Source: Halogranum rubrum
GTDB lineage: Archaea; Halobacteriota; Halobacteria; Halobacteriales; Haloferacaceae
Direction: 5' to 3'
Assembly: GCF_900114455.1 (NCBI RefSeq)
Contig: NZ_FOTC01000001.1
Span: forward strand, 459,058-523,057
DNA length: 64,000 bases
This document shows, in pieces, positions 10,447 through 61,019 of the stretch (positions are counted from its first letter, which is position 1; every line of letters begins with the position of its first letter). The translations under genes were made by a program, and so were the position numbers. The notes under the pieces were generated by a model, which did not search any database, had not been told where the DNA came from, and worked only from the letters and a program-made list of their open reading frames with translations.

Positions 10447-10447
10447 G

Positions 10448-16957: not shown

Positions 16958-16981
16958 TATTACGGGCAGAATTGAGTGTCC

Positions 16982-18805: not shown

Positions 18806-18808
18806 CTC

Positions 18809-23107: not shown

Positions 23108-23119
23108 CACGCTACATAC

Positions 23120-25801: not shown

Positions 25802-28011
25802 CGACTCACGAAACGCAGATGACGCAGGCAGAGAAGATGGACGAGAACGTCGAGACGCTTCTCGACGAGATGACTCTTCGCGAGAAGGCCGCCCAACTTG
25901 CAGGCACCTACGTTGGCACGATGGATGAGACCCGAACTGTCGACGACACGAAAGAGATGATTCGTGAGCACGGAATCGGGTTCGCGACTCCCTTCGGGTA
26001 CGGTGCCTCGCCGCACCGCGCCTCCGAGGAGGTTGTTGAGATCGCCAACAACCTCCAGCGTATCGCCCGTGAGGAAACCCGTCTCGGAATCCCGGTTCTC
26101 ATTCCTGTCGACGCCATCCATGGGCATGCGTACGTCGAAGATACGACGGTCTTCCCGCACAACATGGCCGTCGCAGCCGCCCGCGATCGGACGCTCACCA
26201 AGCAAATCGGCACCGTTACCGCGACTGAAGTCGCCGCGACGGGGTCAAGTCTCACCTACGGGCCAACCTGTGACGTCGCCCGCGACCCGCGCTGGGGGCG
26301 CGCCTTCGAGACGTTCGGCGAATCACCGTATCTCGTCGGGGAACTCGCCGCGGCGAAAGCCCGCGGCATTCGTGGTGCCCCGGTTGACGTCGCAGCGATG
26401 GCAAAACACTTCCCAGCATACGGCGAGCCCGAACGCGGTGAAGACGCCTCGCCAGTCGACAAGTCGCTCTCGTCACTCTACCGTGACTTTCTGCCGCCGT
26501 TCGAGAAAGTACTCGCCGAAGGGGTCGAAGGCGTCATGCCGAGCTACAACTCTATCAACGGCGAACCCTCTCACGGCTCACAGTACTGGCTGACCGAAGT
26601 CCTTCGCGACGACTTCGGCTTCGAGGGCTACGTCGCGTCCGACTGGAACGGCATCAACATGCTTCATCAAAACCATCGGGTCGCGACGAGTCCGCAGGAT
26701 TCCATCTACCAATCGTTCACTGCTGGCGTCGACGTTCATTCGCTCGGCGAGGTCACACACGTCGACCACGTAGTTTCGCTTGTTGAGTCCGGCGCAGTCG
26801 ATGAAGCGGCTGTCAATGCATCCGTCCGCCGTGTCCTCCAACTCAAGTCCGACCTCGGTCTATTCGAGGACCCGTTCGTCGACCCCGACGAATCCGCAGA
26901 CACGCTCGAAACCGACGCCCACCGAGATGTCGCTCTTGAGGCGGCACGCAAGTCGATGACGCTGGTGAAGAACGATGACTGTTTGCCGTTCGAGTCTGAC
27001 GTCGATGAGCTACTCGTTACTGGGCCGAACGCCGATGACTTGACGAACCAGGTCGGCGGCTGGAGCCTCAAAGAAGCGCACGAACTTGATGGAACGACCA
27101 TCAAGGAGGGCATCGAATCTGTCGTCTCCGCTGACACGGCAGTTCGCTTCGAGCGTGGGTCGGGCATCGACGAACCTGCTGACCTTGATGCGGCAGTTAC
27201 AGCCGCTGAAGATGCCGACGCTGCCGTTGTCGTGCTCGGGGAAAATTGGTATCTCCACGAGTTCGGTCCACAAGATGTGAACGGGCCGACCGAGGCGTTC
27301 CCGAACCGTTCGGAGTTGACGCTCCCTGACGCACAGCGCAGACTCCTCGAAGCAGTTGTCGAGACGGGAACGCCGACGGCGCTCGTCCTTGTCTCTGGGC
27401 GCCCGCTTGCTGTCTCGTGGGCAGCCGAACACGTCGACGCCATCGTACAGGCATACTATCCGGGGGCGGACGGTGGGCGGGCAGTCGCCGAGACACTGTT
27501 CGGGCATAACAACCCGAGCGGCAAACTTCCGATCTCGGTGCCACGCTCGGAGGGGCAGCACCCAGTCCGACACAACTATCTTCCGCATCCGTACCCGATC
27601 GGTGAGGACGAACATCTGCCATCGTACGACCCGCTGTGGGCGTTCGGACACGGCCTCTCGTACACTGACTTCGAGTATCGCGGGCTATCGGTCTCAGCCG
27701 AGTCGCTCGCCGAGGATGAATCAATCACAGCCACAGTCACACTTGCGAACACGGGCGAGCGGGCCGGCGACGAGGTTGTCCAACTGTTCGGCGGCCGTGA
27801 GCACGCGTCGGTCGTCACGCCGGTCGAGGAACTCATCGACTTCCAACGAGTCTCACTCGACCCGGGTCAAGAGACGACCGTCACATTCGAGATTGCAGCC
27901 GAGACGTTCGACGTTGTTCGTCCTGACGGGAGCAGCCGATTCGAATCGGGTCAACTCTCACTCCGGTGTGAGTCGCTGGACGCGTCGATCACAGCAGTCG
28001 CCGATGACTGA
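25798..28011 (+). CDS. GH3 family beta-glucosidase
   Basis: 737 residues, no signal peptide, so cytoplasmic. Domain order is that of GH3: TIM-barrel (about 20-350) with VDAIHGHAYVEDTTVFPHN and the nucleophile in VASDWNGIN (D282); alpha/beta sandwich (about 370-600) with GENWYLHEFGPQD; and a C-terminal fibronectin-III-like domain (about 650-725) beginning AFGHGLSYTDFEY. It would release glucose from imported beta-gluco-oligosaccharides. It is last in the seven-gene operon, coupled to GH81 by an ATGA-type overlap, and converges with the TrmB-like regulator 32 bases away. Confidence 0.9.
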   Translation: MTTHETQMTQAEKMDENVETLLDEMTLREKAAQLAGTYVGTMDETRTVDDTKEMIREHGIGFATPFGYGASPHRASEEVVEIANNLQRIAREETRLGIPVLIPVDAIHGHAYVEDTTVFPHNMAVAAARDRTLTKQIGTVTATEVAATGSSLTYGPTCDVARDPRWGRAFETFGESPYLVGELAAAKARGIRGAPVDVAAMAKHFPAYGEPERGEDASPVDKSLSSLYRDFLPPFEKVLAEGVEGVMPSYNSINGEPSHGSQYWLTEVLRDDFGFEGYVASDWNGINMLHQNHRVATSPQDSIYQSFTAGVDVHSLGEVTHVDHVVSLVESGAVDEAAVNASVRRVLQLKSDLGLFEDPFVDPDESADTLETDAHRDVALEAARKSMTLVKNDDCLPFESDVDELLVTGPNADDLTNQVGGWSLKEAHELDGTTIKEGIESVVSADTAVRFERGSGIDEPADLDAAVTAAEDADAAVVVLGENWYLHEFGPQDVNGPTEAFPNRSELTLPDAQRRLLEAVVETGTPTALVLVSGRPLAVSWAAEHVDAIVQAYYPGADGGRAVAETLFGHNNPSGKLPISVPRSEGQHPVRHNYLPHPYPIGEDEHLPSYDPLWAFGHGLSYTDFEYRGLSVSAESLAEDESITATVTLANTGERAGDEVVQLFGGREHASVVTPVEELIDFQRVSLDPGQETTVTFEIAAETFDVVRPDGSSRFESGQLSLRCESLDASITAVADD

Positions 28012-28043
28012 AAGCCACTGTGTGCTCGGTCTTGAGTTCTGAA

Positions 28044-29132
28044 CTAGCCGTCGGGAAATAGTCGCTTTCCCGGGGTGATTCCAACAAGCGATATCGTCCG
28101 CATTTCGACGTCTTCGAAGACGGCACCCCAGCCACCGACGATGACGCTTCGGGATTCGGTCTCGAGTTGGACGGTCTTGTAAGACCCCAAATCCGAGAGG
28201 CTCAGAATCTCTCGTGGTTGCTGATCACCAAGAAACGAGAGGTCACGTACTGTCCCTTCTAATGTCGTTGCCGACTCTGTCTCTAAGTCGATGCCGTTGA
28301 CGACGACCTCTAATTCGTAGTTGTCTTCGAAGAGGGGGTAGTAATCGCGGATGAACTCCTCGAGCGTAACGTAGGTCAGCCTGTCGGCATCGTCGACATA
28401 GAGCTGTGGATAGAGGTCCCACAGACAGGTGAGGTAGTACCAATGGAATACGAACGGCAGGATGCGGTCGTTGATTAAGACGCCGTAGTCCTCATCAGAG
28501 CGAGTGTTCGGCGCGAAACAGGTCCGATGCCGGTCGATGATGACAAGGAATGGACCCGGGATGGTACACGCCCGCAGTTCTGAGAGACCATCAGTCGGAT
28601 CGAACTCCGGTGGCGGTGTCTGGTCGTCGTCGACGTAAACAGCGGCGCGAACCATTACACCTCGCTCGCGAGCATCTCGAAGCTCGGGTGCTAGTCGTTG
28701 CAATTGCTCGAACGTTCCCGCAACTTCGATGACGGTTTCGGCTTCTCCAATGAAGTTCTGTGCGTTCTCGACGGCTGTCTCAACACGTTTCGTGACTCCG
28801 ACGCGTGTATCGACGCGACCAGGCTGTCGATACCGCTCACGTACCTCCTCGGCCGCATCGTGGAGGAGGTCACCTCTGGACTCCAAGTCGGTCATCGACT
28901 CCTCGGGCTCGCAGGGACGGACGTGAAGTTTCTCGCGCTCGATGGTCTCGACATATCCCTTCATTTCCAGATCTCGAAGCACGTCGTAAACCTGTGAGAC
29001 CGGGACGGAGCTTTTGCGGCCCACCTCAATTGCTGGCGATACACCCATCTCTAAGAGAGTGAGGTATGCATCCGCCTGATAGGACGTCAAGTCCGCATAC
29101 TCTAACGCCTGTGTGAGTGTGTCACGGTCCAT
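28044..29132 (-). CDS. TrmB-family sugar-responsive transcriptional regulator
   Basis: 362 residues from ATG 29132 (MDRDTLTQALEYADLTSYQA). The N-terminal winged helix (about residues 8-85) has YLTLLEMGVSPAIEVGRKSS and VPVSQVYDVLRDLEMKGYVE. A helical linker (about 90-120) and a TrmB effector domain follow (IGEAETVIEVAGT, then FLVIIDRHRTCF and a C-terminal beta-rich part). In archaea such proteins bind sugars and switch ABC-sugar operons. Convergent location next to GH3 makes it the likely regulator of the beta-glucan operon; the ligand is not deducible. Confidence 0.88.
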   Translation of the reverse strand: MDRDTLTQALEYADLTSYQADAYLTLLEMGVSPAIEVGRKSSVPVSQVYDVLRDLEMKGYVETIEREKLHVRPCEPEESMTDLESRGDLLHDAAEEVRERYRQPGRVDTRVGVTKRVETAVENAQNFIGEAETVIEVAGTFEQLQRLAPELRDARERGVMVRAAVYVDDDQTPPPEFDPTDGLSELRACTIPGPFLVIIDRHRTCFAPNTRSDEDYGVLINDRILPFVFHWYYLTCLWDLYPQLYVDDADRLTYVTLEEFIRDYYPLFEDNYELEVVVNGIDLETESATTLEGTVRDLSFLGDQQPREILSLSDLGSYKTVQLETESRSVIVGGWGAVFEDVEMRTISLVGITPGKRLFPDG

Positions 29133-29350
29133 AACCAGAATCAGTGGATACCGGCATATCAAGGTTCACAGTTCTGCTTGCGGTCTCACCGGCTTGGTTC
29201 GGCCCGTGTACTTCTTACACCTTCTCTCCCACTCACAAGGCGGAGTGTCTTTCCTCGAAGTCACTGTCTCATCGACAGCGCAGTGAAATACCCACAAACA
29301 ATAGCGAGTCCTTCTTCGGCCGGACTGCATGCCATCCTCTCGTTGTCGAC

Positions 29351-31363: not shown

Positions 31364-31633
31364 CTAGCGGTACTGCTCTTCCCACGCTTTGCGGGCGTCG
31401 AGTTCACGCTCTCCACGCTTGGTGATGCTGTACCCGTTTGTCCGCCTATCTTTCTCGGATTTGTCGATTAGACCTTTCTCAACAAGCTCATCCAAATTGG
31501 GATACAGTCGACCGTGATGGATCTCCTTCTCGTAGTACTCTTCGAGTTCTTCACTGAGCGCGAGGCCATGTGGGTTCTCAAAGCCCGAAACGACATACAG
31601 CAAATCTCGCTGGAATCCAGTTAAGTCGTGCAT
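31364..31633 (-). CDS. PadR-family transcriptional regulator
   Basis: 89 residues, compact winged helix: LTGFQRDLLYVVSGFENPHG, EEYYEKEIHHGRLYPNLDEL, VEKGLIDKSEKDRRTNGYSI and TKRGERELDARK. The HHGRLYPNLDELVEKGLI portion matches PadR and the haloarchaeal PadR-like proteins. No effector domain. It faces away from the secretion-like cluster across a 415-base gap, so it may control both directions. Confidence 0.85.
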   Translation of the reverse strand: MHDLTGFQRDLLYVVSGFENPHGLALSEELEEYYEKEIHHGRLYPNLDELVEKGLIDKSEKDRRTNGYSITKRGERELDARKAWEEQYR

Positions 31634-32048
31634 ACTCAGGAAAGAATATTATTTCAAACACTACATATTTGTCGGATTGTCGTGGTTTGTTGGTGCGAAG
31701 CGTACGTGACCAGCGATTGTTAGTACTCCATCTGGCGCATTTCACAGCCAATGTGAGACGACCTTGGGACTCTCTCGGCGGTTCTCATAGACTCGCGGAG
31801 GAAGTCCCCCCATCTACGTGTGGGAAGGATCCGACAACAGGCCCTCGATGCATCACCGATGGCAGGCAGACTCCCGAACGTGTCTGAAAACCGAGTGACT
31901 ACCGTTGATTGGCACCGAAAGCTATCAGTTGTATTTGTATCTCTGCCTGCAGATATATTTTTAACAGAATGACTCCCATGTAACTTGAGACAGTGTCCAT
32001 TGACACCACATGACATGGTGTGGTGTGTAGAAGCTGTCTCATTCCGCT
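31634..32048. promoter_or_regulatory. Divergent promoter region between PadR regulator and the secretion-like cluster
   Basis: There is no gene here. AT-rich stretches flank both sides: about 31640-31670 before the PadR gene, and GATATATTTTTAACAG at about 31949-31964, a good TATA candidate for the plus-strand cluster. That would give a 5' leader of roughly 75 bases before ATG 32049, which is long for a haloarchaeon. The remaining open frames are short and non-haloarchaeal in composition. Confidence 0.45.
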
Positions 32049-32465
32049 ATGACAACACAACACCCCCCACAACCGCAATCGACTGGTTGGCTGCGACAGC
32101 TTGAGACGTCTACGTTCATCCGGCAAGGACTGTTCGTAACAATCACTCTCCTCGTCGTTGCCGTGACGCCAGCGCTCGCACAAACGGATCCAGTCTGTTC
32201 TGCAACGAAACTTCCAACCATGCTCGAGGGTTTCTTCGAGATCACGACAGCGATCGGCGTCCTCGGCGTTGCACTCGTCTGGCAGGGTGATTCGCTAATG
32301 GAGATGTTCACCATTGGGATCGACGAGAAACGTGCGCTGAAGCGACACAAGCGAACAGCGCTCAAGTCGGCAGTTATCCTGCTCGTCCTCGGGCCACTCT
32401 ACACCGTCGCGGGGTCGATTATGGGACTCCCCCTCGCCTCGTGTATCAACCTCGTGCCGTGGTAA
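32049..32465 (+). CDS. Small membrane protein, possible VirB2/pilin-like subunit
   Basis: 138 residues. A signal-like N-terminal helix (LFVTITLLVVAVTPALAQT, possible cleavage after ALA) is followed by a mature part with two hydrophobic helices (about 62-80 and 105-128) and a basic cytoplasmic loop EKRALKRHKRTALKS. Size and topology match VirB2/TrbC-type pilins of type IV secretion systems, and it is the first gene of a cluster ending with a VirB4-type ATPase. There is no direct sequence match I can name, so the pilin role is inference from architecture and position. It holds two cysteines in the mature part (PVCSAT, ASCINL). Confidence 0.6.
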   Translation: MTTQHPPQPQSTGWLRQLETSTFIRQGLFVTITLLVVAVTPALAQTDPVCSATKLPTMLEGFFEITTAIGVLGVALVWQGDSLMEMFTIGIDEKRALKRHKRTALKSAVILLVLGPLYTVAGSIMGLPLASCINLVPW

Positions 32466-32480
32466 CTCACTGAACAGCCA

Positions 32481-34166
32481 GTGAGATTCCCCCGTTCGCG
32501 TGTGACATCATGGTCGAACCTCAGTGTTGCACTCTGCCTCATAAGCCTCCTCGTCAGTGTGGGGTCTGCCACACCCCCGACACCGAGTGACGACAATGGC
32601 CTCACCGAGAACGAATCGGCGACACTGTGGTCACACGACCACGATACATACGTGAACGAATCGACCTATCAGACAGCGCACAACCGTTCTCGAGTGCCAA
32701 TGCAGCAGTTGGCCAACGGTACGGATTTTGCGTTTACCCGGCCGCCACGGACGGCGGCGACGTGGACACAGAACGACTTCGAGGAGTTAGAAGCTGGTGA
32801 CGAGAAGACGAGTGTCGCTCCGAGTCACGCTGCGCTGACCGACGGCGTACTCATTCGAGACGCCCACGTGACCGTCTTCGCCATGCATCCCTCGACCCGC
32901 GGGCATCTCACCGCGACGGAGACGCCACTGTACGTCGCTCCAAGCGGGTCGCTACGAGCACTCATCGACTACCGAGTCCAGCTACCGACTGCGAACAACA
33001 GCACCGACACTGACTGGTCGGTTACGTCGCACTCCATCGAGGAGGTTCGGCTCCGAGACGACGAGACGACGATTGCTCAGAGTGCAGGAACGCACACGCC
33101 CGTCCTTGGGTACGAACTCGAAACGGGTGGGCCAGCAACGCTCACCGTCGAAGCCGACATCGCCGTCGCAGTCGGTAACGGTATCACTTCGAACACGGAG
33201 ACGCTCACAGTCTCGGAGACGATTGACGTCGTCGTCTACGATCTTACTGCGTACCCTCACTACACGACCTATCCAAACGGCGATACTGGCGTGGCAATCT
33301 TCCAGAGTCTGCCGTGGCATGGGTACACACTCGGTGAGAATGCGAGCGTCCGTGGTGTGTGGCGCTTCTATACCGCACGTGACAGACGCTGGGACACGCT
33401 TTCGGTGTCGACAGCAACTGACGCCGAGACCATCGAGTCACCGTCGCTGCCGGTATACGTCCACGCCTACCCGTCACGTATCGGCCCACGAGCCGAACCG
33501 CTTCGCGATGGTCCTGAACTACTCGATGTCTGGGGTATCGAGCGCGATTCTCCGAACGAAACGCTCGGCGAGAACGTCGCCGTCGAGGTCGTCGACGAGC
33601 CATACACGACGTCCTACGGCGTCGCTATTCGAGCAACCGCCGTCGACCGCGATGACTTGACCGTGAGTGGCATTGTCCATGGTGTCAACGCAACCGTTGT
33701 CGACACTGATGAGACCACCCGGCTGTTCAACGAGAGCAACCTCTCTGTTACCGTCATCTCACAGACAACATCGGAGGCAACGCTTCGCATCGAGCTTCGA
33801 GACAACGAGACGGACAGACCAATCGTGCTCGCCGACAATCCGCGACTTGATCCACTCCGAGAAGAGCGCCGAACTGGCTACATCACCGTCGCCGGCGAGC
33901 GCGTTGAGACGAACTCAACCGGCGTCGCCCTACTCACCGTCTCCCAGCCGGGCATCTACACCGCACGATATCACCCTGGGTCGTGGCTGAGCACCGACCC
34001 AGCGTACACTCCCGCCTCAGCATCGGCGCGATGGCATCCACTCAGCTCGATTGACGGGTGGGTTGCACTCGCCGTGGAGGTTCTCTGGATGTCCATCCCA
34101 TTTCTCGTCACACTGTACGCTGGGCGACGAGTACTGACGTTCCTGCCCGGTGGCCGCATCGACTGA
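32481..34166 (+). CDS. Large exported protein with C-terminal membrane anchor
   Basis: 561 residues, GTG start 16 bases after the previous stop. Signal peptide at the N-terminus (SVALCLISLLVSVGSAT) and one C-terminal helix (WMSIPFLVTLYAG) before the short basic tail RRVLTFLPGGRID, so the bulk is outside the cell. The exterior part is threonine- and acid-rich, with many N-x-S/T sequons and several beta-rich repeats (such as TLTVEADIAVAVGNG and VTVISQTTSEATLRIELRD), suggesting Ig-like domains. It may be a cell-surface or mating-contact component of the secretion-like cluster. No family recognised. Confidence 0.7.
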   Translation: MRFPRSRVTSWSNLSVALCLISLLVSVGSATPPTPSDDNGLTENESATLWSHDHDTYVNESTYQTAHNRSRVPMQQLANGTDFAFTRPPRTAATWTQNDFEELEAGDEKTSVAPSHAALTDGVLIRDAHVTVFAMHPSTRGHLTATETPLYVAPSGSLRALIDYRVQLPTANNSTDTDWSVTSHSIEEVRLRDDETTIAQSAGTHTPVLGYELETGGPATLTVEADIAVAVGNGITSNTETLTVSETIDVVVYDLTAYPHYTTYPNGDTGVAIFQSLPWHGYTLGENASVRGVWRFYTARDRRWDTLSVSTATDAETIESPSLPVYVHAYPSRIGPRAEPLRDGPELLDVWGIERDSPNETLGENVAVEVVDEPYTTSYGVAIRATAVDRDDLTVSGIVHGVNATVVDTDETTRLFNESNLSVTVISQTTSEATLRIELRDNETDRPIVLADNPRLDPLREERRTGYITVAGERVETNSTGVALLTVSQPGIYTARYHPGSWLSTDPAYTPASASARWHPLSSIDGWVALAVEVLWMSIPFLVTLYAGRRVLTFLPGGRID

Positions 34167-34185
34167 TGACTATCACAAGATCGCT

Positions 34186-35022
34186 ATGACACAACACAAT
34201 ACTCGACACAGACGAACCGTCCTCAGAACACTTGCAAGTTGCACCCTAGCACTCCTTGCTGGGTGTACTGGGAAGGCTACCCAAACAGACGAGACACAAG
34301 GCGCGACCGGTGAACGTAACGGCGTTCTCAACCGCGTCGCCATTGAGCAGACGACACTCGTCGTTGAGCTTGCGAACGATGACCCGGACGTCGTTAACCT
34401 CATCGAACCAAACGGCGAGCTCTGGAAATCACGCGACGTCGCAACCGGCGTTGAGCGTGTTTCCTTTGAAATCGGGACGTCCTACACACCTGGAGAGCAC
34501 CGCGTGCTTGCGGTGAAAGACGACGAATCGATTGCTGAGGTTGCACTGACTATTCGACCCCAGTTGGAGATTGTGGACGTCGGCCTCTTTCGGAACCATC
34601 CGGAGAAACCGTGGGAAGAGGTGTACGGAGAAAGCGAGACGAATCGCAAAAAAGATGGAGAAGCATTTGTCACCATCGCCAACAGCGGTACTGGTCCTGA
34701 TACTGTGACTAGACTACGCTTTGATGGTGACTTACCCAACCAGTCAGATGACTCTCGTGGAAGTGGTCTGTATGGGCGCAAGCAAGCTAAGATACTACCA
34801 ACTGATAGTATCGATCTCTACAGTAGTACATATCCGTTCGGTCCGCCGCTTTACGAAGATGAGGTTCGTTGTTCAGAAGCCGGTACGGAGGGAGTGTTTA
34901 CGGTTAAGATTGACTCTGATGTTTCTGGTGAAGGTATTGAGAAGCAATTCGCCATAACATACTCTGGATCTGAGGACTTCCACGATTGCGACATCGAAAT
35001 CAAAGGAGTCATCGATGGTTGA
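34186..35022 (+). CDS. Tat lipoprotein of the secretion-like cluster
   Basis: 278 residues from ATG 34186. RHRRTVLRTLASCTLALLAG precedes lipobox Cys 27; twin arginines are at residues 9-10. Mature part: an Ig-like first domain (about 45-145; LVVELANDDPDVVNLIEPNG), then a second beta domain with SGTGPDTVTRLRFDG and four cysteines (CSEAGT, DCDIEI region). The last third of the gene has lower GC and AT-ending codons than its neighbours, a sign of recent exchange. The stop overlaps the next gene by eight bases. Likely an extracytoplasmic partner of the membrane complex. Confidence 0.7.
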   Translation: MTQHNTRHRRTVLRTLASCTLALLAGCTGKATQTDETQGATGERNGVLNRVAIEQTTLVVELANDDPDVVNLIEPNGELWKSRDVATGVERVSFEIGTSYTPGEHRVLAVKDDESIAEVALTIRPQLEIVDVGLFRNHPEKPWEEVYGESETNRKKDGEAFVTIANSGTGPDTVTRLRFDGDLPNQSDDSRGSGLYGRKQAKILPTDSIDLYSSTYPFGPPLYEDEVRCSEAGTEGVFTVKIDSDVSGEGIEKQFAITYSGSEDFHDCDIEIKGVIDG

Positions 35023-36082
35023 TCTAATCGACATCGTCTTAGAGGGCTTCAAGCAGGTCATCTCTTGGGTGACTAGTCAGTTCATCAAAGAGCTTGAGGT
35101 TGGATATAGCGCTTTGACCCAATCGCTGTTTGGAACTCCAACTCCCACGACCGACGGTAATTTTGTTTTTGGGGCCCCAACGAGTGAACCCTGGATTTCA
35201 ATTCACGATGGACTTGTCGGCGGCGATGTATTGTTTATTTCTCTGCTGCTACTCATCGTCTCTGTCCAAGCACGGCACCTTCTGAGAATTTTCCACATAA
35301 GTAGTACGTATGGAGCGCGAAAAACAGCTAAGACAGCCTGGACAGGAGCAGTTCTGATTATCTGTTGGTACTGGATCGCCGTTCTCACCCTCTACCTCGT
35401 GGACGGCTTTACAATTGCTCTGCTTCCACAACTAGAGTCAATTGGCAAAGCTCTGATACGGATGACTGCCACGTCTCTTACTAGTCCCATCTTCGGCCTG
35501 ATCTTCGCCGCCATCGGTGGTCTCTCGATGTGGACACTCCAAGCGCTCCTCTATCTGCGTGAGCTTCTGCTCTATGTCTACCTCTATGCGATGCCGATCG
35601 CCTTTGCCCTCTCCTACGGCAACGTCCCCATCCTCGCAGACATCGCCACGGGCTTCTCGAGACGCTTCGTTCCATTGGCAGTCCTGCCACTCCCAGCCGC
35701 CGTCGTCCTGAAAGGCTACGATCTGCTCTACCAGACGGGTGCACTCAACCCACCGACAGTGTTCTTCAAGCACCTCGTCGCGACAAGCCTGCCGCTCATC
35801 GCCCTCTACGTGACGTGGAAGACGTTCAAATACGCCTCACCACTCACCGCACGCGTCATCGGGACGGCAACGCAGACTGCTGTCACCGTCGGCGCCGTCG
35901 CGACAGGCGCATATGTCGCCGGCGGAAGCGTCGCAACGACTGCCGCTCGCTGGGGGCCACGAGCAGCAGCGGGGCAAGCGTTCGCCCAGCGTGCGACGGC
36001 GTACGCCCAGCCCACGACCGAATCACCGAATCAGCCCCCGTACAGACGAACCGAGAACGACCCTGACCCAACCTACCACTAA
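35015..36082 (+). CDS. Polytopic membrane protein, VirB6/TrbL-like
   Basis: 355 residues with six to seven membrane helices between about residues 65 and 310 and a disordered C-terminal tail (about 315-355). The start MVDLIDIVLEGFKQVISWVT is amphipathic. Central helices include RELLLYVYLYAMPIAFALSY and a Pro-rich loop. TrbL and VirB6 proteins have this topology and sit before VirB4-type ATPases in many archaeal plasmids. It overlaps neighbours on both sides (8 and 1 bases). Proposed inner-membrane channel component; assignment by topology and synteny. Confidence 0.65.
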   Translation: MVDLIDIVLEGFKQVISWVTSQFIKELEVGYSALTQSLFGTPTPTTDGNFVFGAPTSEPWISIHDGLVGGDVLFISLLLLIVSVQARHLLRIFHISSTYGARKTAKTAWTGAVLIICWYWIAVLTLYLVDGFTIALLPQLESIGKALIRMTATSLTSPIFGLIFAAIGGLSMWTLQALLYLRELLLYVYLYAMPIAFALSYGNVPILADIATGFSRRFVPLAVLPLPAAVVLKGYDLLYQTGALNPPTVFFKHLVATSLPLIALYVTWKTFKYASPLTARVIGTATQTAVTVGAVATGAYVAGGSVATTAARWGPRAAAGQAFAQRATAYAQPTTESPNQPPYRRTENDPDPTYH

Positions 36083-37188
36083 TGGCTGCAGATACTGACG
36101 CCGCTTCGAGACGCATTATGAACCAGTTCGGCGACGAGAGCCGCATCCCCTTTCTTAACGTTGAGGAAGGAGACGTCGGCGTCCTCGTTGGCTGTCCCAT
36201 CCTCGGCCTCTTTGTCGCAGCTCTTTCGGGCATCGACACACTGGCACTCCCCTTCGTGGCCGCAGGCTTCGGCATCGGCGTCGCCATCGTCTACGTCACC
36301 CCGACTCACCTAACGGCGTGGGCGTGGCTCACCGATGTGTGGCGCTTCGTCAAACGGCCACGCACGACTTACAACACGCCCGCGAACACGACGCACTCAC
36401 GAAACGAAGGTGGGTTGGCCAACTACACACCCTTTGCCCCGGATGAGCGGACCCAAGACCTGACCAATATCAAGTGTGCATGGCCAGGCGCCGGCACAAT
36501 CGAGCGCACGGACGGGACAATGGAAGCGTTCCTCGAACTCACACCGGGCAACATGGACTTCGCGATGTCCACCGACTGGGCAAGTCTCCAATCGATCGCC
36601 GAAGACTTTGCGAACAACGAACTGACGTTCTCCTTGCGACTCCATACCACAACCCGCTCGTTTCCCGTGGAGAAGTTGATAGATCAGTTCGGCACACGAC
36701 TTACCGATGAGGATGTGAGAGCGAACCCGATCTTCCGTGAGCTGCTCGAAGAGTACCGCGAGACACGGCCGGCGGAGATGCACGCTCGTGGCCTGCAAGA
36801 GATTCGCTACTTCCTCGGCGTGGAGGTGACGCCACTTGAGGTGTACAACCGCTACGCAGACGAACCAACACCTACAGAGCGGTTGACGGAGTTTCCCTTC
36901 ATCGGCTTTCTGTTTACGCCATTCGTGACGCGTCGTGAGCGCCTCACCGACGAAGAGCGACGGACGAAAATGTTCGAGAAACTTGACGAGCGGCTACTGA
37001 CCGTTCGCTCAGAGCTCGTTGAGCCTGCATCCGGGTGGTCTGCCCGTCGACTGAGTACTGTCGAGTTGTTCGTTCTCACGATGGACTTCTGGAACGGCGA
37101 AGCACACAGCTACGGCGATGGCGAGTCCGTGCTTCGAACCGGACCAGTGGTTGGGCGCTCGCGACGCCAGGAGTCCACTCATGTATGA
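36082..37188 (+). CDS. Membrane-associated protein resembling PrgI/VirB3 plus VirB4 N-terminal region
   Basis: 368 residues. Two close helices at about residues 33-75 (GVLVGCPILGLFVAALSGI and then the second helix) are typical of PrgI/VirB3-type subunits. The remainder is soluble: LTNIKCAWPGAGTIERTDGT, then MEAFLELTPGNMDFAMSTDW and AEMHARGLQEIRYFLGVEV, which resemble the N-terminal, non-ATPase domain of VirB4/TraC proteins. No Walker motif is present. It starts at the previous stop (1-base overlap) and its end overlaps the VirB4-type gene by eight bases, so the two products probably act together. Confidence 0.65.
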   Translation: MAADTDAASRRIMNQFGDESRIPFLNVEEGDVGVLVGCPILGLFVAALSGIDTLALPFVAAGFGIGVAIVYVTPTHLTAWAWLTDVWRFVKRPRTTYNTPANTTHSRNEGGLANYTPFAPDERTQDLTNIKCAWPGAGTIERTDGTMEAFLELTPGNMDFAMSTDWASLQSIAEDFANNELTFSLRLHTTTRSFPVEKLIDQFGTRLTDEDVRANPIFRELLEEYRETRPAEMHARGLQEIRYFLGVEVTPLEVYNRYADEPTPTERLTEFPFIGFLFTPFVTRRERLTDEERRTKMFEKLDERLLTVRSELVEPASGWSARRLSTVELFVLTMDFWNGEAHSYGDGESVLRTGPVVGRSRRQESTHV

Positions 37189-39358
37189 ACTCCTCTTGCA
37201 GGTTGACCCGCGTCTTGAGTCACTGCAGTTGCAACTTTTCGTGGTCACGACGACCGTCGGTGCGATTGGGCTCTTGGTAGCCAGATTTGCACGTGCAAAC
37301 GACGGATCTTCACCGCGCATTGAGGGTGGTGACCTATTAGCACTCGATGACGCTGAGACAACGCGCTCCGAAGACGGTGACTCTCCAGCAAGCGATGAGC
37401 CACACGACCACTCGAACAACACCGATGTCGATGTTGAGACCATCTTCTATGAAACGCTCGAAGAACACCACCAGTCAGCCGTCGCTCCGGCAGCGATCGA
37501 GTGGGAGACTCGCGCCGCACGCGTGGGTGAACAGTGGACGACGACGCTCTATATCGCCGAGTACCCGGATTACCCGAGTGATGGCTATTTGAGTGATTTG
37601 TTCACGCTCACAGATGTCGAGTTCGACGTCACTGCACGCATCAGACCGCGGAATCAAGAACGGGCCCGGAATGAACTCCAAGAGATCGCTGACGATCTAC
37701 AGGTCGATGCCGACCTCGAGCGAAGTGTCCGGAGCACCTACTTACAGGAACGAGCCAACACCGCGGCTGCAACGTACAATGCCGTCGAGAGCGGCCAGCA
37801 CGTCTTCAGCCAGAGTATTCTCATCACGGTTCGTGCCGAAACGCGGCCACAACTCCGTGAGGCAGCGCGAAAGGTTCGAAGTACGCTCCGTGAAGATCCC
37901 GCGAACCTCACCCCGAAGACAGCCCTCTGTCGACAAGACCTGGCACTTCAGTCAGCCGCACCCATTGGGCCGAACGTCTTCGAACGTGAGTCGATTGCCC
38001 TCGGCGGCGCTGTCGGCGCACTCTTAGCGTCACCACACAACGCAACGATTCTCGAACCCGGTGGTGTCGAGTTCGGAACGCACAGACACACCGGCAGCCC
38101 GGTCGTCATCGATCCGTTTGCTCGGGAGAACGGCTATGCGATGTTCGTCGTCGGCGATACTGGCTCGGGGAAGTCGTTTGCCTCGAAGCAGAACTTCATC
38201 CGCTCGATCGAACAGAGTCCTGACCGAATCGGCATCATCCTCGAGCCGCTCAACAACTGGGCGGGCGTCGCCGACGCACTTGGGGCGACCCGCATTACTG
38301 TGGGTGGCACGCTTGGGTTGAATCCACTGGAAATTCGACCGACACCTGCACACGTCCAGCGGGCGATGGGCGAGGATGCGAGTCCGTTCAACGAGAAGCT
38401 CGACGATGCGATGAGCTTTCTGACGAACTTCTTCGCACTTCGCGACATCTCGCTCAACGACCGGCGTACCACGGTCGAACGGGCGCTTCGTGAGGCCTAC
38501 CTCCGGAAGGGTATCACTGACGACGTCGACACACACGGAAACGAGAGCCCGACGATTCGCGACATGATGGACGTCTTCGAAGAAATGATCGAGACGCCCG
38601 ACCCGTTTGTCGTTCGGTCGGCAGCAGAGACTGCGAAGCTCCAAGCAGACGCTACGTGGTTACTCGATCAGTTCCGGCCGTTCGAAGCAGGCGGTCGCTA
38701 CGAGAACCTCGGCAAGCCCTCCGAATTCGACATTCGCGATGAGAAAGTTGTCTATCTCGACCTCGCACAACGTGAAGGAAGCGTCGATAGTTCGACTGCG
38801 CTGACGATGCAGTTACTCATCTCGCTCGTCTATGAGCGTGCTAAATCCAGTGATGCGGAGATCGTCTTCTACCTGGATGAAGCGCGCTACCTGATGAAGG
38901 ACGCAGCGAGCTTATCGTTCTTAGAGACGGTGTTTCGCCATCACCGCCATCACGATCTGTCGATTCGCCTCATCACGCAGACGGTCGATGAGTTTTTCCA
39001 GCATCCTGAGTCGGAGGCGATTCTCGACCAGTGTGCCGTCAAACAGTTCCACCGACTCGATGGGATGGACAAACACTGGGCCGACGAGTTCGGGCTCAAC
39101 TACGCGCAGATGCGCTTCGTCCAGGATGCGATTCCTGGGAACGAGGACACTGGCTATTCGGAGGCACTCGTCGGTGTCGACGGCGAGTGGCGCGGGATTC
39201 AGGTTCGGGCACTACCGAGAGAAAAAGACGTAATCGACTTCGACCCACGAGCGTCGGCTCAGTCATTCACACCGCCAGCCGAGCACTCTGTGAGTGAGAC
39301 GAACACCATGCCCGGTAGTGACCCAGCTGATGGGCCACCTCGTCGTTCGATGAAGTAG
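37181..39358 (+). CDS. VirB4-type conjugation/secretion ATPase
   Basis: 725 residues from ATG 37181 (MYELLLQVDPRLESLQLQLF). One N-terminal membrane helix, an acidic linker, then a VirB4 N-domain (about 110-280). The HerA/FtsK-type ATPase follows: Walker A GDTGSGKS at about 325-332, Walker B EIVFYLDEARYLM around 560, and a late motif ITQTVDEFFQHPE with the sensor Gln. VirB4 ATPases power pilus or channel assembly in type IV secretion. Starting upstream at 37118 would only read through the previous gene. It is the last gene of the cluster; the motor is intact. Confidence 0.88.
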   Translation: MYELLLQVDPRLESLQLQLFVVTTTVGAIGLLVARFARANDGSSPRIEGGDLLALDDAETTRSEDGDSPASDEPHDHSNNTDVDVETIFYETLEEHHQSAVAPAAIEWETRAARVGEQWTTTLYIAEYPDYPSDGYLSDLFTLTDVEFDVTARIRPRNQERARNELQEIADDLQVDADLERSVRSTYLQERANTAAATYNAVESGQHVFSQSILITVRAETRPQLREAARKVRSTLREDPANLTPKTALCRQDLALQSAAPIGPNVFERESIALGGAVGALLASPHNATILEPGGVEFGTHRHTGSPVVIDPFARENGYAMFVVGDTGSGKSFASKQNFIRSIEQSPDRIGIILEPLNNWAGVADALGATRITVGGTLGLNPLEIRPTPAHVQRAMGEDASPFNEKLDDAMSFLTNFFALRDISLNDRRTTVERALREAYLRKGITDDVDTHGNESPTIRDMMDVFEEMIETPDPFVVRSAAETAKLQADATWLLDQFRPFEAGGRYENLGKPSEFDIRDEKVVYLDLAQREGSVDSSTALTMQLLISLVYERAKSSDAEIVFYLDEARYLMKDAASLSFLETVFRHHRHHDLSIRLITQTVDEFFQHPESEAILDQCAVKQFHRLDGMDKHWADEFGLNYAQMRFVQDAIPGNEDTGYSEALVGVDGEWRGIQVRALPREKDVIDFDPRASAQSFTPPAEHSVSETNTMPGSDPADGPPRRSMK

Positions 39359-54706: not shown

Positions 54707-54786
54707 CCATACAACATTTGTTTGTGCTATTTTGAACGATGAATTTATCGACTCTTGAGTGGTGTATGTGAACATACCACATAGAA

Positions 54787-57700
54787 ATGAGTCATACACC
54801 TGCCGCTGACGACCCCAAACAGTCACCAAGTCCTTCGTCACGTCACCCACGTCGGTCAGCACTCAAAATCACACCCACAGACGACACGCTCACACTGGAG
54901 ACGATTCACGCGCAGTTCCAGACGTTGCACCGACTCTGCCAGCAGACGGCGACTGACGTCGAATGGCTACTCGTCAAACCAGAGTCAACAGCCGAACTCG
55001 AGTATTATCTCTCGGCCACAGACGAATCCGGTCTTGCCCGGATTGAGCAGTTCGCACGACGCCTCTTTGCGGACCCGTACGAACTCACACAGACGACGCT
55101 CACACTTCCAACACAGACACTGGTTGCGCCAACCGAACCCAGCCCCGACGGCACTGACACGCCGACAACGTCGGTTGCGGGCATCGAATTCCACGGTCAC
55201 GCCGAGCGCCGCCACGACTGGCAGCTGAAACTCACCGACTATGCTGCCTTCGAAAGTGACCATCGTCGCACTCGGAATCCACTCTCGACGGTCGTTGCAG
55301 CGATGGTCAGCGCCACCGTACCGATGGTGTATCAAGTGCTCGTCCGCCCGAAGCCCGACTGGACGGCCGATGCAGCCCTCCGTCGAGATGACTTGCTCAC
55401 CTACGAGGACACGTTTACCCAGCGGTGGTTTGGCAGTATCGACGACCGCCCGGTTCGCGAGCGTTCGCTCGATGACGTAGATCACAGTCACGCCGAGCGT
55501 ATTAGACAGCTCGACGCCAAAGACGCTCGCCGATCGTTCGACATGAACGTTCGGGCTGTTGCTATCGGCGACGACGACCACTCACTTGACGCAATTGCGA
55601 CCCTCGAGACGGCGTTTAGCGACGTCAGTAACACCTACTATACGGTTCGTCCTCATGTCGTGACGGGTGAGTCAGCCCAGCGACTCGCTGCATCCATCAC
55701 CGAACGGACCTTCCGGACTGGGCTGGGACGGACTCGCCGACTTACCCAGCGGTTGCCCATTACGGCCAACCACAGCCCGTGTCTCGTCGTCGACCCCACT
55801 TCACTGCCGTCGTTTTGTCTCGTCGACGGAGCGCGACTCACCACCGCTGGGAAACAAGGACTCGACATCACACACGGCGAAGCGTCGTCGGTGCCGCGAC
55901 CCCCACTGGAGCGACTGTCGACGTACCGCCAACCCGGGCTTACGCTTGGGCGCCCGCTGACCGAGGATAACGAAACAGAACCTACGCCTGTTTCACTCCC
56001 TCCCTCGTTACAACCACTGCATATCGCTTGGTTCGGGAAAACGGGGTCGGGGAAATCGACGTCGCTGTTGAACGCGATGCTCGATAATCATGCGGCCACA
56101 GACGGCGCGGACATCCTCATCGACCCGAAGGGTGGCGATTTGCCCATCGACTACCTGCGAGCACACTACGCGCGGTATGGGTCGCTACAGAACGTCTATT
56201 ACTTCGACTGTGCGGAGACGCTGCCCGCCATCTCGTTTTTCGATATTCGCGACCAGCTTGCCGATGGGATCGATCGGACAGCCGCTGTCGAGGACGTCGT
56301 CGACCACTATCTCGATATCCTGCGACAGGTGATGGGTCGTGAACGCTTCGATCAGGCCGTTCGCTCACCGGACATCATTCGGTATCTGGTAAAAGCGTTG
56401 TTCGACCCGGTCAACGGCCACGACGTGTTCGGGCATGATGATCTCGAGGAAGCGGCCGCACAGATGCACGATTCGCGTGACGCCCCACCTGTGAGTGATG
56501 ACGGGCTTGCCCGGATGCTCGGCGGCATCACGACCAACAGCAAGCGATCGTTCGACGAGCTGATGCAAGGGGTCGCAAACCGGATCGAGAAGATTCCGGC
56601 TGACGAGCGATTAGGTCAACTCTTCAATCACGTCGCTGTCGACATCGAGGATGACACCGTCCACCCCCAGTTCGACTTTCGGACGATCATCGATGAAGAC
56701 GCCGTCGTCATCTTCGACCTTGGCGCATTGCGCCCGGAAGCTCAACGCGTCATCACGCTCGTGTTGCTCTCTCAGCTGTGGACGGCGTTGAAGCGGCGGC
56801 ACCGAGCAGGCGATGCCGAAGCGTATCCGTTGGTGAATCTCTTTGTCGAGGAAGCCTCAAGCATTGCCGTCTCGAACCTTCTGTCAGATTTACTGGCGCG
56901 TGGTCGGGAATTCTCACTCGCTGTGACACTCGCGATGCAGTTTCCCGCACAGTTGCAGGCAGCCGATTCCGGTGCGTATGCAGAGGTACTGAACAACGTC
57001 TCGACGATCGTTTCTGGAAACGTCGCTGTCGATGAGCGCTTCGAGCGACGATTTGCCACGGCCGATATGACCCCACCAGAGGTCGGCAACCGCCTTCGAG
57101 CCTTACAGCGGGGACAGTGGTTCGTGAGTCTTCCATCCCCCTTCGCCCAGCCAGAGCCACGACCGTTCGTCCTCTCTTCACAGCCGTTGCCTCCAGGCCA
57201 CTCCGAAGGGTCCTCACCGTTTTCGAGGCAAGCCGAACAGCGCGTCACTGCCGCAATCGAGCGCGCCCACTCACGAACACAGAGTCAGTGCGGGCTGTTG
57301 CTCACACAGCGCCACGAAGCAGAGTCCCAGTCACCCCGAACTGCCGCACAGTCTTCGGCTGAATCCGCGCAGTCGGCTGTCGACCTCACAGAAACGACTC
57401 CTCACTCGCCGATTCAGAGCGCCCTCCCGCTGACGAAGCGTCTCCCCATGTGTGTCGAATATCACGAGGCGAGTCATGCACTCGTTTGCACGGCCTGTAC
57501 GAACCGCTATGCACCGACGTTCGAAGGCATGCGTGATGCAATCGAGTGTTGTTACTCACTCGATCGCATCGATCGCGACGACATCCCGATCCACGCACTT
57601 AACCTGACGCTCTCGGCGACGGAGCGAGCTGATAGTGGCTATTCGGATCGCCAACTCGCCTTCTTACAGGCCGTCTACAACGCCCATCAGGGCCGCTATG

Positions 57701-58371
57701 ACGATCTCGAATACAACCTCGTCACCGACAGTATGGTCCGACTCCGCGAGTACGTCGGCATCGACCCAGCGGCCGTCCAAGAACTCGTCGACGATGGCGT
57801 GCTTCGACACGACGGCAATCAACCCCATCGGTTGTACACCGTCTCAGCTGCGGGTCGCGAGCTCATTCACGAGGGATATCGCCGCGGACTCTCACACGGC
57901 GATGGCAAGGGTGATCTGGGCGAGTCTAGCCAGCATATCCTGATGGTCGAAATCGGCCGACAGTATATCGAGCAGGCGTTCGTCACCGACGAAGACTCGA
58001 GTGTCGTTGAGGCGGTTACGTACCATCCAACTCCCGATGGCGGCCGGTTAGATGCAGCCGGGTTGAATAGCCGAGGGACGGTCGTCGTCGCACTTGAAGC
58101 CGAGCGCGTGAACCATGACGTCAAGACGGGCGTTCCAGACGATTACGACAAGATGGCTGCCTGCGAGCCCGAGGAAGCCATCTGGATCACGATGAACCGA
58201 GCGGACGCGCACACGGTGTTGCAGGCACTCAACACGCCCGCTGAGGGGCCGCCTCGCGTCGAGAAGACCTACAGCGAGAGTTCACAGCCGCGGCGGTTTT
58301 CAATCGACACACCGGGCTGTACGGCCATCTATACGCTGCTCTACGTTCGCGATACACTACTCGAGACCTGA
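54787..58371 (+). CDS. Large TraG/VirD4/HerA-like ATPase with C-terminal extension
   Basis: 1194 residues. The N-terminal 390 are alpha/beta and lack membrane helices, with unknown fold similar to other archaeal conjugation ATPases. The motor follows: WFGKTGSGKSTSLLNAM with Walker A at 417-424, DILIDPKGGDLPIDYLRAHY, and Walker B LVNLFVEEASS near 688, then the Q-containing TLAMQFPAQLQ. After a Ser/Gln/Thr-rich linker (about 800-880) the extension has CVEYHEASHALVCTACTNRY (zinc-like cysteines), a winged helix (about 985-1045), and a final alpha/beta domain with GGRLDAAGLNSRGTVVVALE where D and E residues are spaced as in PD-(D/E)xK nucleases (inference). Likely the coupling protein of the transfer system. 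Confidence 0.8.
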   Translation: MSHTPAADDPKQSPSPSSRHPRRSALKITPTDDTLTLETIHAQFQTLHRLCQQTATDVEWLLVKPESTAELEYYLSATDESGLARIEQFARRLFADPYELTQTTLTLPTQTLVAPTEPSPDGTDTPTTSVAGIEFHGHAERRHDWQLKLTDYAAFESDHRRTRNPLSTVVAAMVSATVPMVYQVLVRPKPDWTADAALRRDDLLTYEDTFTQRWFGSIDDRPVRERSLDDVDHSHAERIRQLDAKDARRSFDMNVRAVAIGDDDHSLDAIATLETAFSDVSNTYYTVRPHVVTGESAQRLAASITERTFRTGLGRTRRLTQRLPITANHSPCLVVDPTSLPSFCLVDGARLTTAGKQGLDITHGEASSVPRPPLERLSTYRQPGLTLGRPLTEDNETEPTPVSLPPSLQPLHIAWFGKTGSGKSTSLLNAMLDNHAATDGADILIDPKGGDLPIDYLRAHYARYGSLQNVYYFDCAETLPAISFFDIRDQLADGIDRTAAVEDVVDHYLDILRQVMGRERFDQAVRSPDIIRYLVKALFDPVNGHDVFGHDDLEEAAAQMHDSRDAPPVSDDGLARMLGGITTNSKRSFDELMQGVANRIEKIPADERLGQLFNHVAVDIEDDTVHPQFDFRTIIDEDAVVIFDLGALRPEAQRVITLVLLSQLWTALKRRHRAGDAEAYPLVNLFVEEASSIAVSNLLSDLLARGREFSLAVTLAMQFPAQLQAADSGAYAEVLNNVSTIVSGNVAVDERFERRFATADMTPPEVGNRLRALQRGQWFVSLPSPFAQPEPRPFVLSSQPLPPGHSEGSSPFSRQAEQRVTAAIERAHSRTQSQCGLLLTQRHEAESQSPRTAAQSSAESAQSAVDLTETTPHSPIQSALPLTKRLPMCVEYHEASHALVCTACTNRYAPTFEGMRDAIECCYSLDRIDRDDIPIHALNLTLSATERADSGYSDRQLAFLQAVYNAHQGRYDDLEYNLVTDSMVRLREYVGIDPAAVQELVDDGVLRHDGNQPHRLYTVSAAGRELIHEGYRRGLSHGDGKGDLGESSQHILMVEIGRQYIEQAFVTDEDSSVVEAVTYHPTPDGGRLDAAGLNSRGTVVVALEAERVNHDVKTGVPDDYDKMAACEPEEAIWITMNRADAHTVLQALNTPAEGPPRVEKTYSESSQPRRFSIDTPGCTAIYTLLYVRDTLLET

Positions 58372-59454
58372 CAGTCACACTTGCGCGTCGATGGTGCGAT
58401 TTTCACAACCCCTGTCGGCGGATGAGCGTGGTGCTAGTGCGGCCTAGGGCGTTCTCTGCCCGTGTAAGAGGCGACACAACGGGCGCGTAACTCCGGAAAC
58501 AACCCGGTGAGTTGCATGAGAGATAGGTACGATGGAAGTGCGATCGGTGGCACGTCAGCACGATGTCGCGAGCAGGCCTCGATGGGTGAGACGCCCGTAG
58601 AAGGAGGATGCGGTTGGAAATTGAGTGGTCGATATGTGTGGCTGCATTGGTGTCACAACGGCTAAAACCCGACGACGGAACGGGGTTGTGAATACTCGCC
58701 GTTCGAGCTGGAGTCGGCGGCGACGATGCCGGATTCGGGGTGGTCGTCGCCGCGTCGTTGTGGTGCGTCCATCTCCTGTGTGTGGTGTCGAAAAGCCCCT
58801 GTGAGGCAGTTTTCGGGGTTCGAGTCGACAGGGAGGAGTCGCCTGTAAGAGCGGTTCCAACTCACTGGCTGAGCCCTTTCACAACCACGCAAAAACGCAC
58901 GACTGCAAGGGGTTGTGAAACTTCTGAAGGGGGCTGTAAGACAACCTCCATTCTGCGTCGGCATCTGTCGTGTCCTCATGGTCAGTGTCGTCGTTCGCGT
59001 TCCCTCGACGAGCAGTGTTTCTGTGTGCGGCGACACTGTCACTTCACCACTCAATCGATGCGATTCAACCGATTGCAGGGGGCTGTGTGCCTGGTGAGTC
59101 TTCTTCGGTTCGCCCCGCGATGGCAGATCCTCTGATTGCTCGCTCACAGATTCATCTGCTGCGTGTTGAGACACCGGTCTGTACTGACCGTTGATTGCTA
59201 CCGTCGCTCCGGCTCGTTGCTCACCCCACTTTCGTCTTCTACACAACTGTTCTTCCGGCGATGAGCAACGCTTGTGAACTCACTGTCGAAGGCTAGTGCT
59301 TGCCGAGGCACTCTCTCCGTGCCCCTCTTCGCGCCGTTGCAGTTGTGAACCCAATAGACGCTCAGCTACCAACACCAATGACAGTCTGTAGCGACTAACA
59401 GAAATAGTTACCAGAGTGTGCGTGGTAGTAACAATCACACAGGCAAGGTGTACG
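58372..59454. other. Non-coding region with iteron-like repeats; candidate replication origin
   Basis: About 1.08 kb without a convincing gene, between the large ATPase and the primase-like gene. The core TTGTGAA occurs six times on either strand: 58402-58408 (inverted), 58686-58692, 58878-58884 (inverted), 58913-58919, 59272-59278 and 59343-59349. Four of these extend to GGTTGTGAA, two to GGGGTTGTGAA. The pair TTTCACAACC (58877-58886) and GGTTGTGAAA (58911-58920) makes a perfect 10-bp inverted repeat. Clustered iterons upstream of a replication gene are typical of plasmid origins. Frames inside the region are cysteine- and arginine-rich and look non-coding. Confidence 0.55.
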
Positions 59455-60660
59455 ATGCAACCAACGCTTCCACATACAGCTACCGTACCCACTGCATTAC
59501 GCGATGTCGACCAGTGGGTCTGTTGGCGCACCCGTGATCGAAGTGGCGAGAAGTCCACGAAAGTCCCGATCGATTCAGCGACGGGGTCGTTTGCGTCGAC
59601 GACAGACCCCGCTACCTGGACGTCCTACGACGACGCCTTCAGCGCTGCCCAACAACGAGGAGCGACTGGTCTCGGCTTCGTGTTCACCGCCGACGATACG
59701 TTCGTCGGCGTCGATCTTGACCACTGTCGTGATCCCGAGACCGGAACGTTCGAGCCCTGGGCTGCGGAGCTCGTCGGGCAGCTCGACTCCTACACCGAAG
59801 TGAGCCCCTCGGGCACAGGCTGTCACGTGCTCTGTCGAGGAACGATGCCTCCGGGTCGAAACCGAAGCGGCGACGTCGAAATGTACACCGAATCGCGATT
59901 CTTCACTGTCACCGGTGACCATGTGGCAGGGACTCCACTCACAGTCGAACACCGAACGGCTGTCCTCGGTGCCATCGCTACAGCGCATCTCTCAACATCC
60001 GAAACAACCCCAACAGAACCGAAATCTGAATCGGAATCGGGGTCAGAAGTGACAGCCGAAACATCGGCTTCATCCACGGCTTCGACGCTCTCTGACGACG
60101 ACCTCCTCGAGCGAGCGAAGGCAGCTGCAAACGGCGAGAAGTTTACGCGCCTGTGGAGTGGTGATGTGAGTACCTACGATAGCCACTCGGAAGCAGACAT
60201 GGCGCTGTGCTGTTTGCTCGCGTTCTGGACGGGCGGCGACACGAACCGGATGAACCAGCTGTTCTGTCGGTCAGGCCTTTATCGAGGCAAATGGGACGAG
60301 CAACACTTCGCAGATGGCAGTACATATGGTGAACGAACACTCCAGCGGGCGTGTGAGCGAACGACAGAACACTACACGCCGACGCCAACAGACACGAGCT
60401 CGACTCCAACTGCAGCGCGTCCGGGCCAGTCACCGACACCGCGTCCGCCTGTACCCACTGCAAAGGTGGTGCACCGACTCACGACAACCGAAGAGACCCT
60501 TGAGTACCTGGAAGCACGCGTGAGCACGGTAGAACAGGAGTGTGAGCGGCTGCGCGACGAACTTGCCGTCGCACGTGAGCCAACGCCAACAACTGACCAA
60601 CGCACGAACACAGACTCGAAGGCGGGTGTGTTGGCTCGCGTCGGGCGACTCTTTCGGTAA
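59455..60660 (+). CDS. Primase-polymerase-like protein (NrS-1-type/plasmid replication)
   Basis: 401 residues from ATG 59455 (MQPTLPHTATVPTALRDVDQ). The first 190 form an archaeo-eukaryotic primase-like fold: WVCWRTRDRSGEKSTKVPID, then TFVGVDLDHCRDPETGTFEP (acidic DxD pair), and VSPSGTGCHVLCRG with the catalytic-type His. Residues about 235-320 are the helical HBD-like domain (AKAAANGEKFTRLWSGDVST, NRMNQLFCRSGLYRGKWDEQ). The C-terminus is a T/P-rich linker and a coiled coil (LEARVSTVEQECERLRDELA). Proteins of this kind replicate or initiate haloarchaeal plasmids and viruses. It lies directly after the iteron region. Confidence 0.8.
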   Translation: MQPTLPHTATVPTALRDVDQWVCWRTRDRSGEKSTKVPIDSATGSFASTTDPATWTSYDDAFSAAQQRGATGLGFVFTADDTFVGVDLDHCRDPETGTFEPWAAELVGQLDSYTEVSPSGTGCHVLCRGTMPPGRNRSGDVEMYTESRFFTVTGDHVAGTPLTVEHRTAVLGAIATAHLSTSETTPTEPKSESESGSEVTAETSASSTASTLSDDDLLERAKAAANGEKFTRLWSGDVSTYDSHSEADMALCCLLAFWTGGDTNRMNQLFCRSGLYRGKWDEQHFADGSTYGERTLQRACERTTEHYTPTPTDTSSTPTAARPGQSPTPRPPVPTAKVVHRLTTTEETLEYLEARVSTVEQECERLRDELAVAREPTPTTDQRTNTDSKAGVLARVGRLFR

Positions 60661-60704: not shown

Positions 60705-61019
60705 TCACGTAAGTTCTGTGTTGAGTTCTTCGAGCGTCGCCGCATCGAACTCGCGGATATCGTAGCGATTGGCACTGCTACGCTCGGTGTAGAATGCGAT
60801 GATCTTCAGCTCGACTAACAAAGCGAGCAACCGGCCAAAGGTGCGCGTGGAGAGCGGTGGGTCGTCGAGATGGTTGTACAGTTGTCGTCCAGTTGGGTAG
60901 GAGCGTGTCGCTCTCTCAAGCGCTGTTTGGAGGAGTGGCAGATGGCGTCTGAGCGTACTGTAGTGTTGTGGGGAACGAGCTTCGAGGGCTGCGACGCGAG
61001 TGGCGAGAGACGAACCCAT
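60705..61019 (-). CDS. Conserved hypothetical protein, winged-helix-like, paralogue of the protein at 0.7 kb
   Basis: 104 residues: MGSSLATRVAALEARSPQHY, LLQTALERATRSYPTGRQLY, LDDPPLSTRTFGRLLALLVE, SANRYDIREFDAATLEELNT. It aligns over nearly its whole length with the protein at 705-1088. The SANRYDI strand after two amphipathic helices fits a small winged helix. Convergent with the primase-like gene, 44 bases away; association with replication genes suggests a copy-number or partition role (inference). Confidence 0.7.
   Translation of the reverse strand: MGSSLATRVAALEARSPQHYSTLRRHLPLLQTALERATRSYPTGRQLYNHLDDPPLSTRTFGRLLALLVELKIIAFYTERSSANRYDIREFDAATLEELNTELT

Follow-up and report, generated by a model that had tools for sequence, protein, structure and literature searches.

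How conjugation begins in archaea whose transfer systems lack a relaxase is an open question, and one on which a single gene of Halogranum rubrum bears. The open reading frame at 54787..58371, on the plus strand of the window (the whole 64,000-nucleotide stretch of DNA analysed), is confirmed as open over these coordinates and encodes 1194 residues. Its motor domain (approximately residues 381–837; 55927..57297, plus strand) is identified by a DUF87 match at residues 387–663 together with TraD matches, and carries the Walker A motif GKTGSGKS at residue 417. In Pfam, DUF87/HerA scores 24.2 bits (cut-off 23.2) and TrwB_AAD_bind 23.5 bits (cut-off 20.5), while the top NCBIfam match of the protein is TIGR03743 TraD. 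A first-pass annotation had described a 1194-residue protein with a HerA/TraG motor, with which both the reading frame and the Pfam matches agree. The features of a coupling protein, namely a RecA/HerA-like motor, a Walker A motif and a match to a coupling-protein profile, are all present, and in the window and in relatives the gene is encoded together with VirB6, VirB4 and a candidate pilin. The motor domain and these partners are shared with the VirD4/TraD/TrwB coupling proteins, from which the Halogranum protein differs in its added C-terminal zinc finger, winged helix and nuclease-like domain, and in having no clear membrane segment. When an N-terminal anchor was sought, the maximum hydropathy over 19 residues was 1.78, reached at residue 168 only.

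The transfer genes around this ATPase, all on the plus strand, begin with a block composed of a candidate TrbC/VirB2-like pilin (32049..32465; Pfam TrbC, E 0.009, under the cut-off), two conserved transfer-block proteins of no assigned function (32481..34166 and 34150..35022), a VirB6/TrbL channel protein (35015..36082; Pfam TrbL_3, E 2e-119), a further conserved protein of no assigned function between VirB6 and VirB4 (36082..37188) and a VirB4-like ATPase (37118..39358; weak Pfam matches to CagE_TrbE_VirB and the TraG P-loop). In the window this pilin-to-VirB4 block (32049–39358) and the coupling protein are 15 kb apart. A primase-like gene with an NrS-1 polymerase helix-bundle domain (59416..60660; Pfam PF22763, E 1.5e-28) follows the coupling protein, and genes of this type adjoin coupling protein genes in 25 of the 74 loci compared. 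Relative to Halogranum amylolyticum (L031), the nearest relative in the genome scan, the transfer genes keep their order in exactly two blocks, 32032–39358 and 54737–60660, corresponding to the VirB block and to the coupling protein, gap and primase, and the DNA between the blocks differs. Halorubrum elements hold the coupling protein, primase and VirB block within approximately 13 kb, and in Haloferax lucentense pSVX82-3 the coupling protein, primase and VirB genes form one contiguous run, at about 61–75 kb of NZ_CP104744. Close homologues are found on plasmids of the genus Haloferax, to which laboratory strains belong, and plasmid homologues of the VirB4-like ATPase adjoin coupling proteins. 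No relatives were found among IMG/VR viral contigs and phage records.

VirB4 and TraG/TraD/VirD4 genes have been described on haloarchaeal integrated elements (PMC9259645), and the window holds the combination by which an integrative conjugative element is recognised, a mating-pair block and a coupling protein in integrated form. No Phage_integrase match was found in the window, and the two guessed ends of the element have no repeat over 11 bp in common.

The C-terminal extension, approximately 320 residues long, is a conserved part of the protein. Residues 870–1194 align over their full length with most of the 74 loci, from many haloarchaeal genera, and an alignment of this segment with 63 relatives (A4, 64 rows) has a mean column identity of 54%. 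Against the nearest orthologue the ATPase is 93% identical, the nuclease domain 89% and the winged helix 86%, whereas the linker is only 64% identical, which indicates that the extension is under purifying selection. AlphaFold models residues 870–1194 with a pLDDT of 91.7 and a pTM of 0.88. The segment opens with a probable zinc finger (approximately residues 888–922; 57448..57552, plus strand), in which C901, C904 and C921 are invariant in all 64 sequences and position 922 holds a Cys in 55 of them and a His in 7; from the sequence, this cluster would probably bind metal. A winged helix follows in the model (approximately residues 944–1026; 57616..57864, plus strand), matched by MarR-family structures in VIA-align with Z up to 7.8 and an rmsd of 2.4–2.8 over about 80 residues.

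The terminal domain (residues 1043–1194; 57913..58368, plus strand) is predicted to be a PD-(D/E)xK-like nuclease on the basis of the AlphaFold model, PDB matches and conservation. Modelled alone, residues 1044–1194 (151 residues) reach a pLDDT of 96.4 and a pTM of 0.91, with secondary structure in the order alpha-beta-beta-beta-alpha-beta. The top Foldseek rows are NucS/EndoMS, an archaeal repair endonuclease and the best match, YaeQ and Can2, the lowest E-value being 0.0046 with none reaching 0.001. The VIA-align rows are headed by AF1548, PaqCI, EcoT38I, Can2, VC1899, YaeQ and BspD6I, including the nickase Nt.BspD6I, with NucC lower down, so that the PDB neighbours are nearly all PD-(D/E)xK proteins. 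The top Z of 7.8 (109 residues, rmsd 4.0) is middling by itself, and the fold assignment draws on the consistent list of neighbours and on the placement of conserved residues, not on the Z score alone. Pfam and NCBIfam scans of the 64 members match the nuclease domain to no named family, and a profile search of PDB sequences gave nothing significant. The Cys/His cluster, winged helix and domain with D...E-x-E spacing that the first-pass annotation had described were all recovered by alignment and AlphaFold, and the structure prediction that it had proposed as a check gave a nuclease-like fold with invariant acidic residues.

The predicted active site is strongly conserved. E1046, H1050, D1089, E1104, E1106 and D1111 are invariant in the 64 sequences of A4, and K1122 is kept in 59. 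In the model strand 2 carries D1089 and strand 3 carries E1104 and E1106; helix 1 has H1050 at its start, shortly after E1046, and helix 2 holds D1119, D1121 and K1122. The motif is a D...E-x-E followed by a Lys on helix 2, the Lys of the textbook E-x-K being replaced by E1106 in all 64 sequences. BamHI is an active enzyme with Glu at the third motif position, and D1089...E1104-x-E1106 has the same D / E-x-E layout. Core fold and position of the D/E-x-E are common to the PD-(D/E)xK nucleases NucS/EndoMS, AF1548, Can2, PaqCI, EcoT38I and Nt.BspD6I, from which the Halogranum domain differs in its fusion to a conjugation motor, in matching no named family at the sequence level and in having E for K.

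Nuclease-tailed coupling proteins are widespread in haloarchaea, the domain being present in 177 of 391 genomes. Among the matches listed, most nuclease domains occur in open frames of approximately 1,150–1,450 residues, which implies that they are fused to the motor, and a free-standing domain beside an intact motor was not seen in any of the 74 loci. Three forms of tail were distinguished, type A being that of the window. Type B is homologous to type A (profile probability 99.5, E 2.4e-22), keeps its acidic residues and occurs in plasmid coupling proteins, including that of pSVX82-3. Type C shows H, P-D, E-V-E and K in the order seen in type A (alignment A6), but hhalign detects no homology between the two, so only a common motif layout is claimed and type C is termed nuclease-like by its motif only. 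All three forms are present in the genome of H. rubrum itself, type A on contig 6, type B on contig 10 and type C on contigs 13 and 15. The coupling proteins of a type C locus (L105) and a type B locus (L106) are 55% identical over approximately 990 residues and then completely different, while their VirB4 proteins are sisters on the VirB4 tree. A conserved motor and sister VirB4s with differing ends indicate that the tail has been exchanged, yet that a nuclease-like one was kept. In two further loci (L114 and L115, genome G029) the coupling protein is divided among three frames that overlap, whether by frameshifts, decay or a natural split. Elsewhere, a 948-aa coupling-type ATPase lies near a VirB4 gene (L125, G048:C1:1040000-1057000; 2754–5600, minus strand), and its C-terminal motif VELEDST is weakly nuclease-like and matches none of the three tail profiles.

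The first-pass annotation had seen no separate relaxase in the window, and this was borne out by two kinds of search. Pfam found none among the likely genes of the element, and an HMM built from relaxase-bearing haloarchaeal loci, run on the window in all six frames, gave no match at a threshold as loose as E 10; nor was a relaxase found elsewhere on the conserved parts of the element. The same HMM found no match, even at E 10, in 89 nuclease-type loci with flanks of up to approximately 9 kb. The coupling ATPase itself contains no HUH motif and no match to a relaxase Pfam family. PF08751 is absent from 60 relatives, and Replic_Relax (PF13814) matched none of 64 members and, in a search that had no positive control, nothing in the genome of H. 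rubrum. By comparison, 28 of the 391 haloarchaeal genomes contain PF03432, which shows that relaxases of haloarchaea can be detected.

In the relaxase-bearing haloarchaeal loci the coupling protein adjoins the relaxase in 33 and is fused to it in the 34th, and none of the three nuclease forms matches the coupling proteins of these 34 loci. The longer tails examined among them are acidic, or primase-like in one (L162). Haloarchaeal transfer systems are thus split between those with a relaxase and a nuclease-free coupling protein and those with a nuclease-tailed coupling protein and no detectable relaxase. On a VirB4 tree, a quick one with long branches, only two changes are needed to explain the two states, so the contrast is valid between loci but has arisen independently few times. 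A genome-level exclusion of relaxase and nuclease, which seemed true in 60 genomes, fails in 391, where G383 and G384, for example, carry both. The reason is that one genome can hold several systems, and the contrast is drawn here between loci only. Mobility typing in PLSDB was likewise dropped: 175 of 176 plasmids with a homologue are called non-mobilizable, but so are 21 of 22 relaxase-bearing haloarchaeal plasmids. The fused locus (L183, G108:C33; 8842–10911, plus strand) has its relaxase domain N-terminal to the coupling ATPase in one frame of 690 aa, and the 997-aa relaxase-associated coupling protein of L162 (G254:C4:141976-161239; 5786–8776, minus strand) ends in a primase-like domain related to the window gene at 59416–60660. 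Together the two fusions demonstrate that DNA-processing domains do join the coupling motor.

From the gene, its predicted fold, its conservation, its partners and the absence of a detectable relaxase, all computed directly, we infer the catalysis, strand choice, site specificity and role in transfer of the tail. That the extension processes DNA is likely. The idea that it replaces the relaxase, raised in the first-pass annotation, is plausible and is the most economical reading, since no other conserved segment of these elements combines a nuclease-like fold with DNA-binding domains. In this scheme the tail would bind, through its zinc finger and winged helix, to the transfer region of the element that encodes it, perhaps at the gap with the repeats (58372–59415). 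The PD-(D/E)xK domain, with D1089, E1104 and E1106 as its metal site, would then cut one or both strands, the motor would feed the freed DNA into the VirB4/VirB6/pilin channel, and the adjoining primase may prime the complementary strand. The tail of the motor would in this way stand in for the missing relaxase, though unlike HUH relaxases it would form no covalent link with the DNA; as a hydrolytic nick leaves no protein on the 5' end, the route would differ from theirs. The HUH relaxases (Pfam Relaxase and MOB families, including those of Haloarcula plasmids such as pNG500) have the proposed role of starting transfer in common with the tail, which has a different fold, no HUH motif or relaxase match, and no covalent attachment to DNA in the proposed scheme. 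pNG500 is one haloarchaeal plasmid classed as conjugative, and archaeal relaxases of unknown kind have been suggested (PMC3158045). The full reading is that 54787–58371 encodes a coupling ATPase which serves an integrated conjugative element of haloarchaea and carries, as its tail, a DNA-processing module in place of the relaxase; it stands just short of an even chance. A general scheme of haloarchaeal conjugation without an HUH relaxase, where a C-terminal PD-(D/E)xK domain nicks or cuts the origin, the motor exports the strand and tails are exchangeable between elements, is tentative, possible rather than probable. The tail is the best candidate for the missing relaxase part of archaeal conjugation, and it names a specific domain and residues for the relaxase-less start of transfer in haloarchaea. 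No description of a nuclease-tailed coupling protein was found in the open-access literature searched.

Other functions of the tail have to be weighed against this proposal. As in HerA-NurA end processing, a non-specific tail nuclease could resect or trim the pumped DNA into single strands, with the initiating break made elsewhere. In favour are the HerA-like grouping of the motor, the top Foldseek rank of the repair endonuclease NucS and a published proposal that HerA-NurA acts in archaeal DNA transfer (PMC9905601). A HerA-type motor with a nuclease is indeed common to HerA-NurA and other HerA-nuclease complexes, but the Halogranum nuclease is fused, is encoded in a conjugation locus and is not NurA-like, NurA having an RNase H fold (PMC9905601), while the presence of a zinc finger and a winged helix points to specific binding; such trimming is conceivable but unlikely. 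It is unlikely, too, that the tail is an auxiliary which binds or matures transfer DNA, with transfer started by a relaxase that went unrecognised or is encoded by the host. Relaxases may diverge too far for HMMs to detect, and the transfer block has several conserved proteins of no assigned function, but the relaxases of other haloarchaeal systems are detectable and, apart from the primase, the conserved set has no other nuclease-like gene.

The replacement of the E-x-K Lys by Glu in 64 of 64 sequences would fit a catalytically dead restriction-like domain serving in DNA binding or docking only. The invariance of the acidic residues in the same 64 sequences, their retention in the homologous type B and the activity of E-x-E in BamHI make this improbable. 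A defence or exclusion enzyme, with HerA and nuclease attacking foreign DNA, is very improbable; the PADLOC HerA and mad8 models do match the motor weakly, but the VirB4 gene also matches mad8, so the match reflects the common ATPase core, and the gene is grouped with pilin, VirB6, VirB4 and primase genes.

For the proposed relaxase substitute, the candidate site of action is the 1-kb non-coding gap between coupling protein and primase (58372..59415), which is conserved in the nearest relative and may be a transfer or replication origin; the latter is equally possible because the primase gene adjoins it. At 58402..58919 TTCACAACC occurs four times as an exact match, in both orientations; the whole window has six copies against 0.49 expected. 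Their positions are conserved in H. amylolyticum, but they are found only in the window element and this nearest relative, and were for this reason rejected as proof of an oriT. A separate element (L086) has a repeat of its own, with nine copies of CGTCGACGC at 9970–11740, downstream of its coupling protein gene.

Near the two ends of the element, small winged-helix-like proteins are encoded on the minus strand (31364–31633 and 60705–61019), and in L110, on contig 13 of this genome, homologues of both are upstream neighbours of a coupling protein. The DNA between the transfer blocks (42.2–54.0 kb) carries cargo that includes PIN, Fic/Doc, TumE, HicA-like and GNAT genes and a DDE transposase. 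A 12.6-kb segment with ABC-transporter-like genes (16587–29211) is inverted in the nearest relative and placed between VirB4 and the coupling protein, which makes it a possible piece of cargo or hitch-hiking island.
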